From positions 1 to 21,491 of the IMG/VR virus record IMGVR_UViG_3300017752_000205: DNA of 21,491 nucleotides. The stretch is one strand, 5' to 3'. Position numbers and translations under genes: made by a program. The notes beneath the pieces were generated by a model that did no database searches, was not told the origin of the DNA, and saw only the letters and a list, made by a program, of their open reading frames with translations. Source of the stretch: a virus. Positions 3,050 to 21,491 of the stretch are shown piece after piece. How positions within the stretch are numbered: position 1 is the first letter of the stretch; each line of letters begins with the position of its first letter.

Positions 3050-3280
3050 TTACCATACTTCTATTAGTTTGTCAAGATAATGTTTGCACTTTTGCAAATC
3101 AAGTACCCCGCCTTTGTCTTGAAAGCGAGCAATGTATTTGATTACATTACCCATGAGATAGCCACGGTACTGGTCTTCAGTCATCCATGACTGCATTGCA
3201 TCCCAAGGTTGTATGTCTTTGGATGTGTAATGGTTACCGCCAAGCTGATACTCACGGGCCATAGAACTTAGATCAGGCAT
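3050..3280 (-). CDS. DUF3310 family protein
   Basis: The 76-residue protein matches the DUF3310 pattern common in phages: a GGNHY box near residue 14, then PWDAMQSW, then GYLMGNVIKYIARFQDKGG and a final helix with YLDKLIE. Members are often labelled nucleotide kinase in databases, but no kinase motif such as a P-loop is present and the function is unproven. The short N-terminus before GGNHY is normal for the family. The start overlaps the phosphoesterase stop by 8 nt, and GGGAG lies just upstream of the ATG. It sits in the nucleotide-metabolism end of the operon, directly before the nrd genes. Confidence 0.85.
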   Translation of the reverse strand: MPDLSSMAREYQLGGNHYTSKDIQPWDAMQSWMTEDQYRGYLMGNVIKYIARFQDKGGVLDLQKCKHYLDKLIEVW

Positions 3281-4037
3281 ACCTCTCCCTCAAGTAGTTG
3301 ATTGACACTGGCATCTCATCGAATGTACCTTCAGCTACTTCATGCAACATCCAGATACCAGACCATGATCCGTTAGTCTGCGGGTTCAAGTAGTCCTCAT
3401 CATGTTGATAATAAATACCTGCAAACAATCCAGTGATGCGTTTACCATCAGCACGCTTGGCATATGAGATACTACGATCCTGTACGTGACCCATGACACA
3501 ACTCATGTGCTGTTTATTCAGCAGTGCATTAGAAGAACTTACTGGTCTTCCCATAACACCACTAACAAAGTAATGGCTATAACACACGCCATCAATGACC
3601 ACAGGCTGTAAGAAATCATAGACCTCCCATCCCATCTCTGTTAAATATAAATCATCAAAGGACATTAGCCCTTCTAACTTAGGGTCAGCGTTGATAGCGC
3701 GAGCAATACGATACTCGTGGTTACCAAGTGTGAATACCATGCGAGGGTTCCACTGCTTGTCCTTGTTACGCTTGAGTCTTTCCTGTTCCTTACGAATAGG
3801 ATCAAGGAACTCTTGCATAGCCTCGATGCCTGCATTGATATCGTTGACGTAGCGTCTGCCCTCAAACGATTTCTTACCGACATCATACGTTGATAAACTA
3901 GGTAGATCAAAGTGATCGCCGATGTGTATGATAACATCAGGTTTCTTGTCTACGGCATATTCTCCTGCCCAACGCAAGTGATCAATTGGATGATCAGGTT
4001 TTACTTGCGTATCAGGTATGACCATATGTTTAAGCAT
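3273..4037 (-). CDS. Calcineurin-like metallophosphoesterase
   Basis: The 254-residue protein has the metallophosphoesterase motifs in order: motif I as DTQ (D9, Q11) in place of the usual DxH, motif II GDHFD (D41), motif III GNHEY (105-109), a histidine at about H155 (YSHYF) and MGH with H184. These bind two metal ions and hydrolyse phosphoesters; the substrate is unknown. Phosphoesterases sit beside replication genes in several marine podoviruses. The Gln in motif I may alter one metal site. The start MLKHM has AGAAGG upstream. The ATG lies within a TTAAGCATGCTTAA palindrome that overlaps the end of the upstream nuclease gene. Residue 5 is an alternative ATG. Confidence 0.9.
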   Translation of the reverse strand: MLKHMVIPDTQVKPDHPIDHLRWAGEYAVDKKPDVIIHIGDHFDLPSLSTYDVGKKSFEGRRYVNDINAGIEAMQEFLDPIRKEQERLKRNKDKQWNPRMVFTLGNHEYRIARAINADPKLEGLMSFDDLYLTEMGWEVYDFLQPVVIDGVCYSHYFVSGVMGRPVSSSNALLNKQHMSCVMGHVQDRSISYAKRADGKRITGLFAGIYYQHDEDYLNPQTNGSWSGIWMLHEVAEGTFDEMPVSINYLRERYA

Positions 4038-4043
4038 GCTTAA
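4029..4043. repeat. Palindrome TTTAAGCATGCTTAA (fourth copy, genic)
   Basis: This is a perfect 14-bp palindrome (TTAAGCATGCTTAA) with an extra T. It is the same motif found at 11630, 12211 and 12319 near the control region. Here it spans the junction of the nuclease stop and the phosphoesterase start, so part of the match is coding. It could be a functional copy or a coincidence. Confidence 0.6.
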
Positions 4044-4395
4044 CCTTCTTCAGTAGTTCAAAGAAATACTCTGCATCAACAACAGCTAAAGGATTTCTTC
4101 TGTTTTCTTTGACGATGACAAGTGGCTGTGCATCGCCTCGATTGTTGCATTGGTCAATGAAACGATATACTCCAACTCTCGCAAGCGACTTGCATTCGAC
4201 ATCGAACGGGAAAGACTTGCGAGCCAAAGGGCTGAGTTGAAGATCACTGCCACTAACACCCATACTTGTACTTCTGACATCATCCTCCTCCAGATGGGGA
4301 TACACATCGAGAACTTGATCACGAGTCCACTGTTGTAGTTTACGCCCCTTCGCTTTCGCTGACTGCGTTTTCACTTGGCGGACTCCATATCTCAT
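4030..4395 (-). CDS. Putative PD-(D/E)XK nuclease / Holliday-junction-resolvase-like protein
   Basis: This 121-residue protein has a plausible PD-(D/E)XK core: D51 in SGSDLQLSP, then E67-C-K69 in FDVECKSLAR, followed by a helix with QCNNRGDAQPLVIVKEN. That spacing resembles small phage resolvases and endonucleases, and the position right after the exonuclease suits branched-DNA processing, the role of gp3 in T7. It shows no clear similarity to T7 gp3 by eye, so the nuclease call rests on motif and context. Start: ATG 4395 lies 1 nt after AAGGAG. An in-frame GTG at 4374 has GGAG 8 nt upstream and may be the true start. It overlaps the exonuclease by 56 nt. Confidence 0.65.
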   Translation of the reverse strand: MRYGVRQVKTQSAKAKGRKLQQWTRDQVLDVYPHLEEDDVRSTSMGVSGSDLQLSPLARKSFPFDVECKSLARVGVYRFIDQCNNRGDAQPLVIVKENRRNPLAVVDAEYFFELLKKVKHA

Positions 4396-9253: not shown

Positions 9254-9526
9254 TTACCTCCACGGTTTCGTGATCATCCAGTGACCACAGGGTATCACAC
9301 CTGACCATAGTTCGTCAAATGAATATGGGTTTGGTTTACGCCCGGATGGAGTCATGCCTCGTTGTTCTAACCCTAGCTTTTTCCTGTTACGACTGACGTA
9401 CTTAATGACTGCAGGTTGTTTTCTTTGTACTTTTTTAGCGATCTCTTTGGTTGCCACTCCTTCTTTCCAGAGCTTGCATAGCAAATCAATATCCTCATGA
9501 GACCACGCTTGGTCAACCCTAATCAT
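9254..9526 (-). CDS. Small HTH (Myb/GcrA-like) DNA-binding protein
   Basis: From ATG 9526 the protein is 90 residues. Residues 8-52 (WSHEDIDLLCKLWKEGVATKEIAKKV, then a basic recognition helix ending RKKLGL) look like a GcrA or SANT-type helix-turn-helix, with the typical W...LL..LW spacing. The C-terminal part is short and aromatic (CGHWMITKPWR). A GTG five codons upstream is also open, but GGAGG is 8 nt before ATG 9526, so that start is chosen. The start overlaps the preceding HTH gene by 4 nt (ATGA). It is a candidate regulator of the phage operons; the target is unknown. Confidence 0.75.
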   Translation of the reverse strand: MIRVDQAWSHEDIDLLCKLWKEGVATKEIAKKVQRKQPAVIKYVSRNRKKLGLEQRGMTPSGRKPNPYSFDELWSGVIPCGHWMITKPWR

Positions 9527-9699
9527 GTTATATGCCTCCACGTTTTATGATTAACAATTTTACTTACTTGAGCTTTTGACAACTCAAACTTTTCTCCAAT
9601 AATATGAAGCTTTAACCCTTCTGCTCTCAATAACCGTATTAAGATTACATCTTCCGGCTCAATCTTTCTGTGTATATGGTTCTGCCAACGATTACTCAT
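9523..9699 (-). CDS. 58-aa HTH protein
   Basis: The frame starts MSNRWQNHIHRKIEPEDVIL and continues to a helix-turn-helix, LRAEGLKLHIIGEKFELSKA then QVSKIVNHKTWRHIT. The layout (first helix, IGEKFELSKAQVSKIV, then a KTW end) resembles small resolvase-type or sigma-like HTH domains found in phage regulators. It fills what would otherwise be a gap of about 170 nt. It overlaps the upstream gene by 4 nt and the downstream HTH gene by 4 nt. Two adjacent DNA-binding proteins make this pair the best in-window candidates for binding the operon palindromes, by inference only. Confidence 0.75.
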   Translation of the reverse strand: MSNRWQNHIHRKIEPEDVILIRLLRAEGLKLHIIGEKFELSKAQVSKIVNHKTWRHIT

Positions 9700-11629: not shown

Positions 11630-11645
11630 TTTAAGTATGCTTAAA
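11630..11645. repeat. Palindrome TTTAAGTATGCTTAAA, copy 1
   Basis: Six-base arms TTTAAG and CTTAAA surround a 4-base centre. The identical 16-mer recurs at 12211-12226. In the leftward mRNA it would form a short hairpin directly upstream of the SD of the 33-aa gene, and it shares its U-run with the terminator at 11641-11665. It may be a DNA operator or an RNA element. Confidence 0.75.
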
Positions 11646-11665
11646 AATTGGGGGCTTTCGCCCCC
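11641..11665 (-). terminator. Rho-independent terminator after the first leftward gene
   Basis: On the minus strand GGGGGC-GAAA-GCCCCC forms a perfect 6-bp GC stem with a GAAA tetraloop, followed by AATTTTTAA. It lies 8 nt downstream of the stop of the 174-aa gene. Its U-tract runs into palindrome copy 1. It would cut off or attenuate transcription of the replication genes downstream. Confidence 0.85.
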
Positions 11666-11672
11666 GTCTGGA

Positions 11673-12197
11673 TTAGGCCGCTTTCGCGATCGCTGTCATC
11701 TCGTCCAGTATCGCGTGAAGTTCTTCAACCGTCATCCCCGCATCAAGCATTGACTTGGCCGATGTCTTGAAGTTGTCAATCGGGTTTGTCACCTCGCTTG
11801 GCTCTTTCGCTTCATCTTGAAGTTTCGGTAGCTCTTCCGCTTTCGGCTTGTTCACCTTGTGATTCGCATTGCGCTTAGGCGATTCACCTTTCAAGCATGC
11901 TTTATACCACTGGTCTAAATTGCCCGCTTGCTCTGCTTTTTTCATGACCTCTTGCTTGTGATCTTTCGCAAGATTCAAGATCTTTTTGATTTGTGACTTG
12001 TAAACCGCCGCGCTTGATTTGGTGACTTTCTTCTTTTCCGCCGCTTCTTGAACCTGCTCAAGGTAGTTCTTAATCAGTTCGTCGCCTAGCGTTGCTTCAT
12101 TGATGAAAGCTTTCAGCGTTTTGACTGTGTTGCCATGCGCTGTTGAAAGCTTGCCAAGCGCTGACGCCATCTGGTTTACGTGTAATTTGATATCCAT
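11673..12197 (-). CDS. 174-aa Lys-rich hypothetical protein, first gene of the leftward operon
   Basis: A helical, Lys/Ala/Glu-rich protein: MDIKLHVNQMASALGKLSTA, a basic stretch with KKKVTKSSAAVYKSQIKKIL, a linker with PKRNANHKVNKPKAEELPK, and a final helix pair ending ILDEMTAIAKAA. There is no signal peptide, membrane span or known motif. GAGG lies about 9 nt before the ATG, directly after palindrome copy 2. A strong terminator follows. First position after the control region, separate termination and a basic character suit an early host-takeover or nucleic-acid-binding protein, as inference. GCTTTCGC-type Ala/Lys codon runs look different from its neighbours, which hints at a separate origin. 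Confidence 0.78.
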   Translation of the reverse strand: MDIKLHVNQMASALGKLSTAHGNTVKTLKAFINEATLGDELIKNYLEQVQEAAEKKKVTKSSAAVYKSQIKKILNLAKDHKQEVMKKAEQAGNLDQWYKACLKGESPKRNANHKVNKPKAEELPKLQDEAKEPSEVTNPIDNFKTSAKSMLDAGMTVEELHAILDEMTAIAKAA

Positions 12198-12210
12198 TGA
12201 TGTTACCTCT

Positions 12211-12226
12211 TTTAAGTATGCTTAAA
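12211..12226. repeat. Palindrome TTTAAGTATGCTTAAA, copy 2
   Basis: Identical 16-mer to copy 1. It lies just upstream of the SD and start codon of the 174-aa gene, so both copies occupy the same position relative to a leftward gene start. Confidence 0.78.
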
Positions 12227-12277
12227 CTCTTGGATTCGCAAGGGGTTTCTTTCCCCGCTTATATAGTTAGACGGATT

Positions 12278-12297
12278 TTGGGACGATTAGTTCCCAA
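12278..12297. repeat. Inverted repeat TTGGGA-N8-TCCCAA
   Basis: Six-base perfect arms with an 8-base centre, in the untranslated leader of the leftward operon between palindrome copies 2 and 3. It could be a protein-binding site or an RNA hairpin in the leader. Confidence 0.5.
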
Positions 12298-12318
12298 GTT
12301 TCTGAAATATTTTTACTC

Positions 12319-12334
12319 TTTAAGCATGCTTAAT
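12319..12334. repeat. Palindrome TTTAAGCATGCTTAAT, copy 3
   Basis: This copy has the fully symmetric core TTAAGCATGCTTAA, differing from copies 1 and 2 by one centre base. It lies about 120 nt upstream of the first leftward gene, where a promoter would be expected, and so is the copy best placed as a transcriptional operator. Confidence 0.72.
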
Positions 12335-12474
12335 AATACGGCAGGGGTATAAAGAAAACCTTATATAGGGGTACTACATCGATACTCACACTCCCATAGT
12401 CAGAAATAATTTGACATGTTGAACTTATCAAGAATCGTGCCAGTTTTGCCATGCAACAAGCGTGCCAACATCTT

Positions 12475-12486: not shown

Positions 12487-12626
12487 GCACCAACGTAGCA
12501 CTGTCGATATAGTGTACCTGCTCAGATACAAAAAAGGGTAAAATAGAAATCTAAATGAGAATGGTTATCTTAATTCAAATCATTTGCATTTACAAAGACT
12601 TAATCGCGTCTGCGGAGGTAAACAGC

Positions 12627-12689: not shown

Positions 12690-12718
12690 TTGACAAAACA
12701 AGGAAAGTATGCTATACT
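12690..12718 (+). promoter_or_regulatory. Sigma-70 promoter of the virion operon
   Basis: A perfect -35 TTGACA (12690-12695), a 17-nt spacer and -10 TATACT (12713-12718) with an extended TGC before it. Transcription would start near 12725, leaving a leader of about 95 nt before the small-terminase start. That leader has a 7-bp inverted repeat, GCAAGAG at 12738 and CTCTTGC at 12781. Confidence 0.87.
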
Positions 12719-19490: not shown

Positions 19491-19514
19491 GGGGGAGTCT
19501 ACTCAGGCTCCCCT
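19491..19514 (+). terminator. Probable intrinsic terminator after the capsid gene
   Basis: GGGGAG (19492-19497) pairs with CTCCCC (19508-19513) across a 10-nt loop, then TGTCTTATTC. The stem is good but the U-run is broken, so partial termination is likely. It would set capsid mRNA above fiber mRNA. Confidence 0.6.
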
Positions 19515-19541
19515 GTCTTATTCAATAAACTGGAGATGTGA

Positions 19542-21491
19542 ATGGCTATCTTTCGTGGCACTGGTGGACAAGGCGACAGCACAACAGATACTACAATTAC
19601 TGTTGTAACGCAGAAAGCCGCTGATGCCGCCGCTAGTGCAAGTGCCGCCGCATCTTCAGCTTCTTCAGCATCTGGGTCTGCAACAAATGCGGCCACGTCT
19701 GCTACCAATGCCGCTACATCAGAGGCTAATGCCGCAACATCAGAAACCAACGCCGCAACATCAGAAACTAATGCATCCGCTTCGGAAACTAACGCGGCTA
19801 CATCAGAGACTAATGCGGCTACATCAGAGACTAATGCGGCTACATCAGAGACTAATGCGGCTACATCAGAGACTAATGCGGCTACTTCCGCCACTAATGC
19901 TGAAACCTCTAAGGTTGCCGCACAAGCGGCCCAGACTGCGGCAGAGCTTGCAGAGACTAACGCTGAAACTGCAGAAACGAATGCCCAAGCTTCTGCTACT
20001 ACCGCCACTACTAAAGCAGGAGAAGCGTCCACTTCAGCGGCCACGGCAACGACTCAAGCAGGTATTGCTACGACTAAAGCATCTGAAGCCTCCTCTAGTG
20101 CCACTGATGCACAAACTGCACAGACAGCGGCAGAGTTAAAATTAGATCAGTTTGATGATAGGTATTTAGGTAGTAAAACTTCTGATCCAACACTAGACAA
20201 TGATGGTAATGCGCTTTTAACAGGAGCTTTATATTGGAACTCTACCTCTGACTTATTAAAAATTTATACAGGCTCTGCGTGGGTGCGTGTAATTTCTGAA
20301 GTGTCTCAAGATACTACTCCTCAGCTTGGAGGAGAGCTTGACGGTCAGACCAATAAGATAACAAACATAGGTGACCCTACTTCTGCTCAAGATGCCGCTA
20401 CAAAGACTTATGTAGACTCTCAGGTACAATCTAAAGATGCCCTATCAGAACTCTCAGGCGACTCTGATGATATTACTGAAGGGTCTACAAATTTATTCCT
20501 AACAACTACTGAACGTACTAAATTATCTGGTATTGAAGCTAGTGCTACTGCGGATCAAACTGCGGCAGAAATTAGGACATTAGTAGAATCTGCTTCAGAC
20601 TCAAATGTATTTACTGATGCAGACCATAGCAAACTTGATGGCATTGAGGCTAGCGCGACTGCTGATCAAACAGACGCTGAAATTAAAACCGCTTACGAAA
20701 ACAATTCAGACACAAATGCATTCACTGATGCTGAACAAACTAAACTTTCCGGTATTGAAACTGGAGCTACCGCAGACCAGACTGCATCCGAAATCCTTAC
20801 TGCAATTAAAACGGTGGATGGTTCTGGTTCTGGCCTTGATGCTGATTTGTTGGACGGAAACGAAGCTAGCGCATTCGCAACGTCAGCGCAAGGTTCCACA
20901 GCAGATTCTGCACTACAAAATATATCCGAAGACACTACTCCTCAACTAGGAGGAAACTTAGATCTTAACAGTTCGGATATTACTGGCACAGGTAACATTA
21001 CTATTACAGGTACTGTTGATGGCCGTGATGTTGCGACTGACGGTACTAAGTTAGACGGTATAGAAGCCTCCGCAGATGTAACCGATGCAACCAACGTAAC
21101 TGCCGCAGGAGCCTTAATGGACTCTGAGGTAACGAATCTAGCGCAAGTAAAAGCATTTGATTCTTCAGACTATGCTACAGCGGCTCAAGGAACAACTGCT
21201 GACAACGCACTTCCTACAGCGGGCGGTACGCTCACAGGCGATCTGGCGTTTGGTGATGATGTTAAAGCCAAGTTTGGTGCGAGTGATGATCTTCAGATTT
21301 ATCACAACGGTAGTAACAGTATTATTCAAGATCAAGGCACCGGCAACCTTCAAATACGAGGGAATGACCTTGCCTTAGTTAATGAGGGATATACAAAAAC
21401 GTATGCGTACGGGACTAATGGCGGTGCTTTTAGCGTCTTTTATGACAACTCTAAGAAGTTTGAAACCACTTCTACAGGCATTGACGTAACA
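19542..21491 (+). CDS. Repetitive tail-fiber/appendage protein, partial (650 codons, open at right edge)
   Basis: ATG 19542, with GGAG 6 nt upstream, opens a frame that stays open to the last base of the window; only out-of-frame shadows of it end in stops. It begins MAIFRGTGGQGDSTTDTTIT, a start I associate with marine-phage fibers. Next come an Ala/Ser/Thr/Asn heptad array (residues about 47-123), a YWNSTSDLLKIYTGSAWVRV module, two DTTPQLGG motifs, three 37-residue GIEASATADQT modules, LDADLLDG and finally LTGDLAFGDDVKAKFGASDD with LQIYHNGS, known from fiber-like proteins. It probably forms a trimeric rod for host binding. Its place right after the capsid gene is unlike T7. Confidence 0.87.
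   Translation, partial: MAIFRGTGGQGDSTTDTTITVVTQKAADAAASASAAASSASSASGSATNAATSATNAATSEANAATSETNAATSETNASASETNAATSETNAATSETNAATSETNAATSETNAATSATNAETSKVAAQAAQTAAELAETNAETAETNAQASATTATTKAGEASTSAATATTQAGIATTKASEASSSATDAQTAQTAAELKLDQFDDRYLGSKTSDPTLDNDGNALLTGALYWNSTSDLLKIYTGSAWVRVISEVSQDTTPQLGGELDGQTNKITNIGDPTSAQDAATKTYVDSQVQSKDALSELSGDSDDITEGSTNLFLTTTERTKLSGIEASATADQTAAEIRTLVESASDSNVFTDADHSKLDGIEASATADQTDAEIKTAYENNSDTNAFTDAEQTKLSGIETGATADQTASEILTAIKTVDGSGSGLDADLLDGNEASAFATSAQGSTADSALQNISEDTTPQLGGNLDLNSSDITGTGNITITGTVDGRDVATDGTKLDGIEASADVTDATNVTAAGALMDSEVTNLAQVKAFDSSDYATAAQGTTADNALPTAGGTLTGDLAFGDDVKAKFGASDDLQIYHNGSNSIIQDQGTGNLQIRGNDLALVNEGYTKTYAYGTNGGAFSVFYDNSKKFETTSTGIDVT
19680..19910 (+). repeat. 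Eleven 21-bp units coding for TSETNAA-type heptads
   Basis: Eleven in-frame heptads (ATNAATS, EANAATS, ETNAATS, ETNASAS and variants) run without interruption. The 21-mer starting GCGGCTACATCAGAGACTAA is repeated exactly four times in a row from 19794 to 19877. The near-perfect DNA identity of the central units points to recent slippage or unequal recombination. The heptad period suits a trimeric coiled-coil shaft. Confidence 0.92.
20499..20831 (+). repeat. Three 111-bp (37-residue) GIEAS modules
   Basis: GIE codons begin at 20529, 20640 and 20751, exactly 111 bp apart. Each unit has the order (F/L)T-A/T-x-x-T/S-KL-S/D-GIE, then ATADQT, then an x-E-I helix. A fourth, degenerate GIEAS occurs at 21057. 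The DNA is well diverged while the protein is conserved, so this array is old compared with the heptad array. Confidence 0.9.

Follow-up and report, generated by a model that had tools for sequence, protein, structure and literature searches.

The gal operators of E. coli lie at about -60 (OE) and about +53 (OI) and are brought together in a GalR/HU loop, and in phage T4, RegA represses translation at many early messages. The repressor of the cluster A mycobacteriophages (L5) recognizes operators and stoperators located at the early promoter and within short gaps between genes; these sites are 13 bp long, asymmetric, and bound by a monomer, and more than twenty are present per genome in this temperate phage (PMC9283540, PMC6550527). 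Their orientation follows transcription, repressor bound there stops elongation and gives immunity to superinfection, and such temperate phages carry an integrase or parABS. The DNA analyzed here, hereafter the window, is a 21,491-nt viral contig from an uncultured marine phage (positions 1 to 21,491 of IMG/VR record IMGVR_UViG_3300017752_000205), and it carries a set of conserved palindromes. As in cluster A, the sites are found both at the early promoter and scattered through short intergenic spaces, and the site motif diverges together with the regulator, here presumed to be the product of gene 1, giving specificity groups. Unlike those of cluster A, however, the sites are palindromic, number 2 to 10 per contig (4 to 10 in most contigs of type B, defined below), and in some cases lie within genes; no integrase (PF00589) was found in 17 contigs of up to 74.7 kb, which may be fragments, and the regulator belongs to another family. 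Because stoperators are asymmetric and the sites here palindromic, we do not regard this phage as a member of the stoperator systems. The likeness to gal lies in two 16-bp palindromes, O3 and O2, which flank the predicted promoter P1 at -66 and +42, 108 bp apart (114 bp in the relative L087), although this spacing ranges from 80 to about 255 bp among relatives and there is no LacI-family protein here. As with RegA, one early protein is proposed to act at several translation initiation regions, but the sites are perfect palindromes, some of them upstream of the promoter or within genes.

The window is organized as a leftward replication operon (primase/helicase, polymerase A, exonuclease, metallophosphoesterase, and ribonucleotide reductase) and a rightward structural block (terminase and portal), some of these names having been assigned by eye from translations, and the two diverge at about 12.2 to 12.8 kb. 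Long repetitive open reading frames overlap on both strands at 19500 to 20140, probably a repetitive tail or adhesion gene. The exact 14-bp core TTAAGYATGCTTAA occurs four times in the window, at 4030 to 4043, 11631 to 11644, 12212 to 12225, and 12320 to 12333, and nowhere else in it, which bears out the count in the first-pass annotation of exact copies at 11630 and 12211, a symmetric variant at 12319, and a fourth copy at 4029. One and the same sequence, with CATA at the center, is found at 11630 and 12211, while the copies at 12319 and 4029 have the center CATG and are fully symmetric. When up to three mismatches are allowed, 16 matches are found in the window against 4.85 +/- 2.60 expected, a number reached in 0 of 100 shuffles; this search also returned an imperfect palindrome with two mismatches within gene 1 (11891 to 11904, minus strand).

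Three of the four palindromes surround gene 1, the first leftward gene (11673 to 12197, minus strand), which encodes a 174-aa protein. Promoters and transcription starts are predicted throughout, and the order along the minus strand is two sigma-54-like elements, O3, the sigma-E (ECF)-like promoter P1 (GGAACT-N16-GTCTAA, 12267 to 12294, with a predicted start at about 12260), O2, a Shine-Dalgarno sequence (SD), gene 1, a terminator-like hairpin, O1, and the next SD. O3 (12319 to 12334, minus strand) had been placed on the promoter itself in the first-pass annotation but lies upstream of it, with its center about 66 bp before the predicted start. O2 (12211 to 12226, minus strand) is in the 5' leader, immediately before the gene 1 SD, with its center at about +42, and O1 (11630 to 11645, minus strand) lies past the terminator, where it immediately precedes the SD of the next small gene; the earlier placement of these two copies next to an SD thus holds on the minus strand. 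O1 also abuts the terminator, as the U-tract of the hairpin GGGGGCGAAAGCCCCC (11650 to 11665, minus strand), which follows gene 1, merges with it. The distal palindrome O4 (4029 to 4044, minus strand), 7.6 kb beyond O1 on the minus strand, overlaps the start codon of a metallophosphoesterase-like gene (3273 to 4037). O4 was at first judged to be a coding coincidence, a view that was dropped because O4 is conserved in relatives and its type there follows gene 1. An Rfam search at the gathering cut-off gave no match, and an incomplete literature search found no report of such palindromes.

Relatives were fetched from IMG/VR using the polymerase and using gene 1, all of them metagenomic contigs, and a de-duplicated set comprised 48 loci and 519 kb. 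The first-pass annotation held that the sites should occupy the same positions in close relatives, and they do: the positions of O2 and O1 are kept, and where the arms change, they change in pairs (TTTAAG..CTTAAA, TTTAAT..ATTAAA, and TTTAGT..ACTAAA). O3 is kept in L087 and is present with other arms, upstream of the promoter, in L019, L011, and L045, while sites of different sequence are found at the O3 position in L016, L044, L053, and group B. In the nine TTAAG/TTAAT genomes in which it was measured, the center of O2 is +34 to +42 relative to the predicted start; the TTTAGT genomes have it farther downstream, at about +56 and +62. The relatives fall into three lineage types, A (TTTARNCATRNYTAAA), B (GTTAAC-N3-GTTAAC), and C (TTTGTA-N2/3-TACAAA), and type B or C palindromes occupy the same places as type A ones; in type C, the order O3-P1-O2-gene 1-terminator-O1 is repeated with unrelated site sequences. 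The early strand of the de-duplicated set carries 38 sites of type A, 55 of type B, and 29 of type C, compared to 0 to 2 in dinucleotide shuffles counted on both strands. The types are mutually exclusive within a contig, with two single exceptions, in L007 and L037. L007 is a type A phage whose type B site, perhaps a recent recombinant, is the only discordant one.

A motif-free search for repeated palindromes in contigs of at least 9 kb recovered the B, C, and TTTAGT families, and block-shuffled controls never gave more than two copies of one arm. The window itself fell below the three-copy threshold of this search because of its CATA centers, and no repeated palindromes were found in L048, L050, L063, or the more distant contigs tested among L064 to L082. 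Type B palindromes were also observed within coding sequence, in the p211 gene, the primase gene, and gene 1 (L024, L029, L032, L033, and L047). In type B gene 1, the VNxVN codons are invariably spelled GTTAAC, a sign that selection may act at the DNA or RNA level and not on the protein. Five contigs carry a type B site downstream of a terminator hairpin, close to the end of the leftward operon (L007 at 17453, L018 at 12445, L032 at 17341, L033 at 13758, and L061 at 7155).

The site type follows gene 1 even at a distance. Of the 29 sites located over 2.5 kb from gene 1, 28 agree with its type, an agreement matched in 0 of 20000 permutations that ignored relatedness, and the polymerase tree requires at least 12 type switches, as where L019 (A) adjoins L025 (B). 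The metallophosphoesterase start is the clearest case: in genes that are about 86 to 100% identical, the sequence at the start codon or immediately upstream is a type A site, a type B site, or neither, according to the type of the genome. The proteins of the window (A) and L029 (B), for example, share 94.8% identity, and their site types differ. Gene 1 of types A and B is only about 20% identical, compared to about 80% for the polymerases. No gene tested other than gene 1 tracks the site type, and the contigs without a gene 1 match (L048, L050, and L063) have no repeated palindromes although the same core genes are present. As the site sequence changes in step with gene 1, this gene probably encodes a hitherto unrecognized repressor that reads the sites, and this joint change sorts the relatives into specificity types A, B, and C, which we would compare to immunity groups. 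The first-pass annotation had instead nominated the two small helix-turn-helix (HTH) proteins encoded at 9254 to 9699 as the binders, a proposal that we abandon, as neither their presence nor their type tracks the sites: the 58-aa protein has no tblastn match in most phages sharing the type A palindrome, and the 95-aa protein is found at about 29 to 43% identity in all groups (90% in L007), palindrome-free contigs included. It is instead the 174-aa gene 1 product whose type follows the sites.

Gene 1 is single copy, and its product matches no curated family. A hidden Markov model (HMM) of type A gene 1 finds type B members with E values of 4e-13 to 2e-7 and one type C member at 1e-5, and finds nothing in L048, L050, L063, or L064 to L084. 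Comparison of the A and B profiles with hhalign gives a probability of 98, while that of A and C gives only 29 to 40, so that the homology of type C gene 1 to the A/B family is likely but weak. The protein is predicted to be all-helical; its AlphaFold model is of middling confidence (mean pLDDT 73, pTM 0.53), and structural searches with it gave no confident match. There was no match above the curated cut-off to any DNA-binding family, no HTH family match in Pfam or PHROGs, for which the weakness of the fold model should be kept in mind, and no homolog in PHROG, PDB sequence, or named-phage searches. The SAM-like core-binding families of tyrosine recombinases, Phage_int_SAM_3/4/5 (Pfam), weakly match several gene 1 relatives, at E values of 0.002 to 0.02, and gene 1 of the window has a weak match of this kind. 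Unlike tyrosine recombinases, however, the 174-aa protein lacks the C-terminal catalytic domain, and these matches are below the curated cut-off.

We consider it probable that the palindromes are DNA operators of a phage-encoded dimeric regulator and that this regulator is most likely the product of gene 1. Host RNA polymerase would start the leftward replication operon at P1, and the product of gene 1, made first, would accumulate and bind O3 and O2 on both sides of P1, turning down its own operon as an autorepressor. Because the spacing of O3 and O2 around P1 resembles that of the gal operators, occlusion or a loop would be the natural reading of this arrangement. The protein would also bind at O1 and O4 and, in other lineages, at ribosome-binding sites, in genes, and next to terminators, and at these extra sites it would hinder elongation or initiation locally. 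The part of the first-pass annotation that proposed an operator set has gained from the symmetric variants, the conserved positions at the early promoter, and the coordinated change within each genome, while the RNA leader element it offered alongside persists as a rival.

That rival, control at the RNA level, is the main one, and we regard it as unlikely. It supposes that the palindrome forms a small mRNA hairpin at ribosome-binding sites, where a phage protein, possibly the gene 1 product itself, represses translation, and we keep it in view of the contact that O2, O1, and many type B sites make with ribosome-binding sites and of the single orientation held by the asymmetric type A variants. 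O2 and O1 lie directly 5' of an SD in types A and C, about 20 of 52 type B sites end 14 to 18 nt ahead of a start codon, and the start codon sits at the center of the palindrome in L011, L045, and O4. At ribosome-binding sites, the asymmetric type A variants (CATA; TTAAGCATGATTAA) face the same way with respect to the gene, although a symmetric DNA site would have no need of this. The O3 copies, however, are upstream of the predicted transcription start, and type B sites also lie deep inside genes and beside terminators, and on the sense strand their spacer is found in either orientation, as GCC or as GGC. Moreover, the type B arm variant GTTAAC-GCC-ATTAAC would give a C.A mismatch in RNA rather than a wobble pair, and the leaders fold no better than shuffles.

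The remaining explanations fare less well than translational control. Were the sites bound by a host regulator, with the lineage types reflecting different hosts, the resemblance of the promoters to those of host sigma factors would be accounted for, but the repeated type switches on a tree of closely related polymerases, the identity of the one co-switching gene as gene 1, and the lack of sites in contigs that have the same core genes without gene 1 make this improbable. A search of GTDB contigs for the host led to three MAG contigs, but these belong to unrelated phyla and probably reflect binning noise. It is quite improbable, too, that these are genome-maintenance sites (for partition, condensation, packaging, or replication) with the gene 1 product as a centromere-binding or architectural protein; the scatter of sites across the early half of the genome, some of them in genes, would suit such a role, but their fixed places around P1, leaders, and gene starts point to expression control, and no integrase was found in the 17 contigs. 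Finally, the copies often take in the adjacent SD, as they might if they were functionless ribosome-binding-site cassettes copied by recombination, or chance occurrences, but we find this very hard to credit given counts far above shuffles, arms that change symmetrically, O3-type and intragenic sites that have no SD, and distant sites that agree with gene 1.

If the palindromes are indeed operators of the gene 1 product, a complete regulatory circuit of promoter, operators, and candidate regulator can be proposed for a group of uncultured marine phages that has many relatives in IMG/VR but lacks a close isolate. Like immunity groups, the specificity types have changed repeatedly while the core genome was conserved, yet no integrase is seen in the 17 contigs, and this raises the question of why apparently lytic phages would need diversifying repressor specificities. 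A broader reading, which we offer tentatively and hold to be possible rather than probable, is that gene 1 is the founding member of a new phage repressor family, perhaps with an integrase-type DNA-binding domain that lacks the catalytic half, whose immunity-like specificity alleles are freely exchanged among apparently lytic marine phages, with palindromic operators and stoperators scattered over the genome, and early promoters that rely on host sigma-E and sigma-54.

The sigma-E consensus is known from E. coli, and P1 fits its -35 element GGAACTT, its -10 element TCTAA, and its 16- to 17-bp spacing. In the 519 kb, the early strand has 15 matches to the motif GGAAC-N17-19-GTCTWA and the opposite strand 0 (about 0.8 in shuffles, both strands). 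The motif precedes gene 1 as P1, and several relatives also have a second copy, P2, which precedes a homolog of the 79-aa open reading frame and is followed by an operator and an SD. The two sigma-54-like elements of the window (12427 to 12468, minus strand) are in tandem, 25 bp apart, and kept in many relatives. The first is TTGGCACG-N4-TTGCA (12452 to 12468), and the second, CTGGCACG-N4-TTGAT (12427 to 12443), is weaker and departs from the pattern at -12. Matches to TGGCAYR-N4-TTGCW, which has GG at -24 and GC at -12, favor the early strand by 18:0 (shuffles about 1.2) and lie in the same intergenic region; since the pattern alone is common in viral contigs, the evidence comes from position and strand, not rarity. 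L069/L070 have two forward and four reverse copies of the element. A phage-encoded sigma-54 activator (PF00158) was absent from the 17 contigs of up to 74.7 kb, and the activator may be encoded by the host. Type B contigs have no sigma-E-like match and seem, by eye, to use a sigma-70-like promoter there. Elsewhere, we infer from these motifs that host sigma-E and sigma-54 would serve the early promoters, a usage for which an incomplete literature search found no report in phages and which, if true, would be unusual and would tie infection to the stress or nutrient state of the host.

Several other elements are found in the divergent intergenic region. A consensus-like sigma-70 promoter for the rightward block, TTGACA-N17-TATACT, lies at 12690 to 12718 on the plus strand of the window and appears by eye to be kept in relatives; the sequence AAGTATGCT within it resembles a half-operator, yet type B and C phages have it as well. 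Fur-box-like repeats of the TGCRAATNATTCKCA type, at about 12560 to 12600 in the window, are found, often in tandem, in this region of many relatives, and lie 160 to 330 bp from terS in L087, L007, L013, L040, L016, L044, L065, and L068; that they confer iron-dependent control is a guess from their sequence. A twofold element like GTRTCTGAGYAGGTAC ... GTGTCTRAGYAGTACCC lies between terS and the early promoters in relatives and is kept even where the sigma-54-like elements are missing; it may represent a cos/pac site adjoining terS or belong to a promoter.
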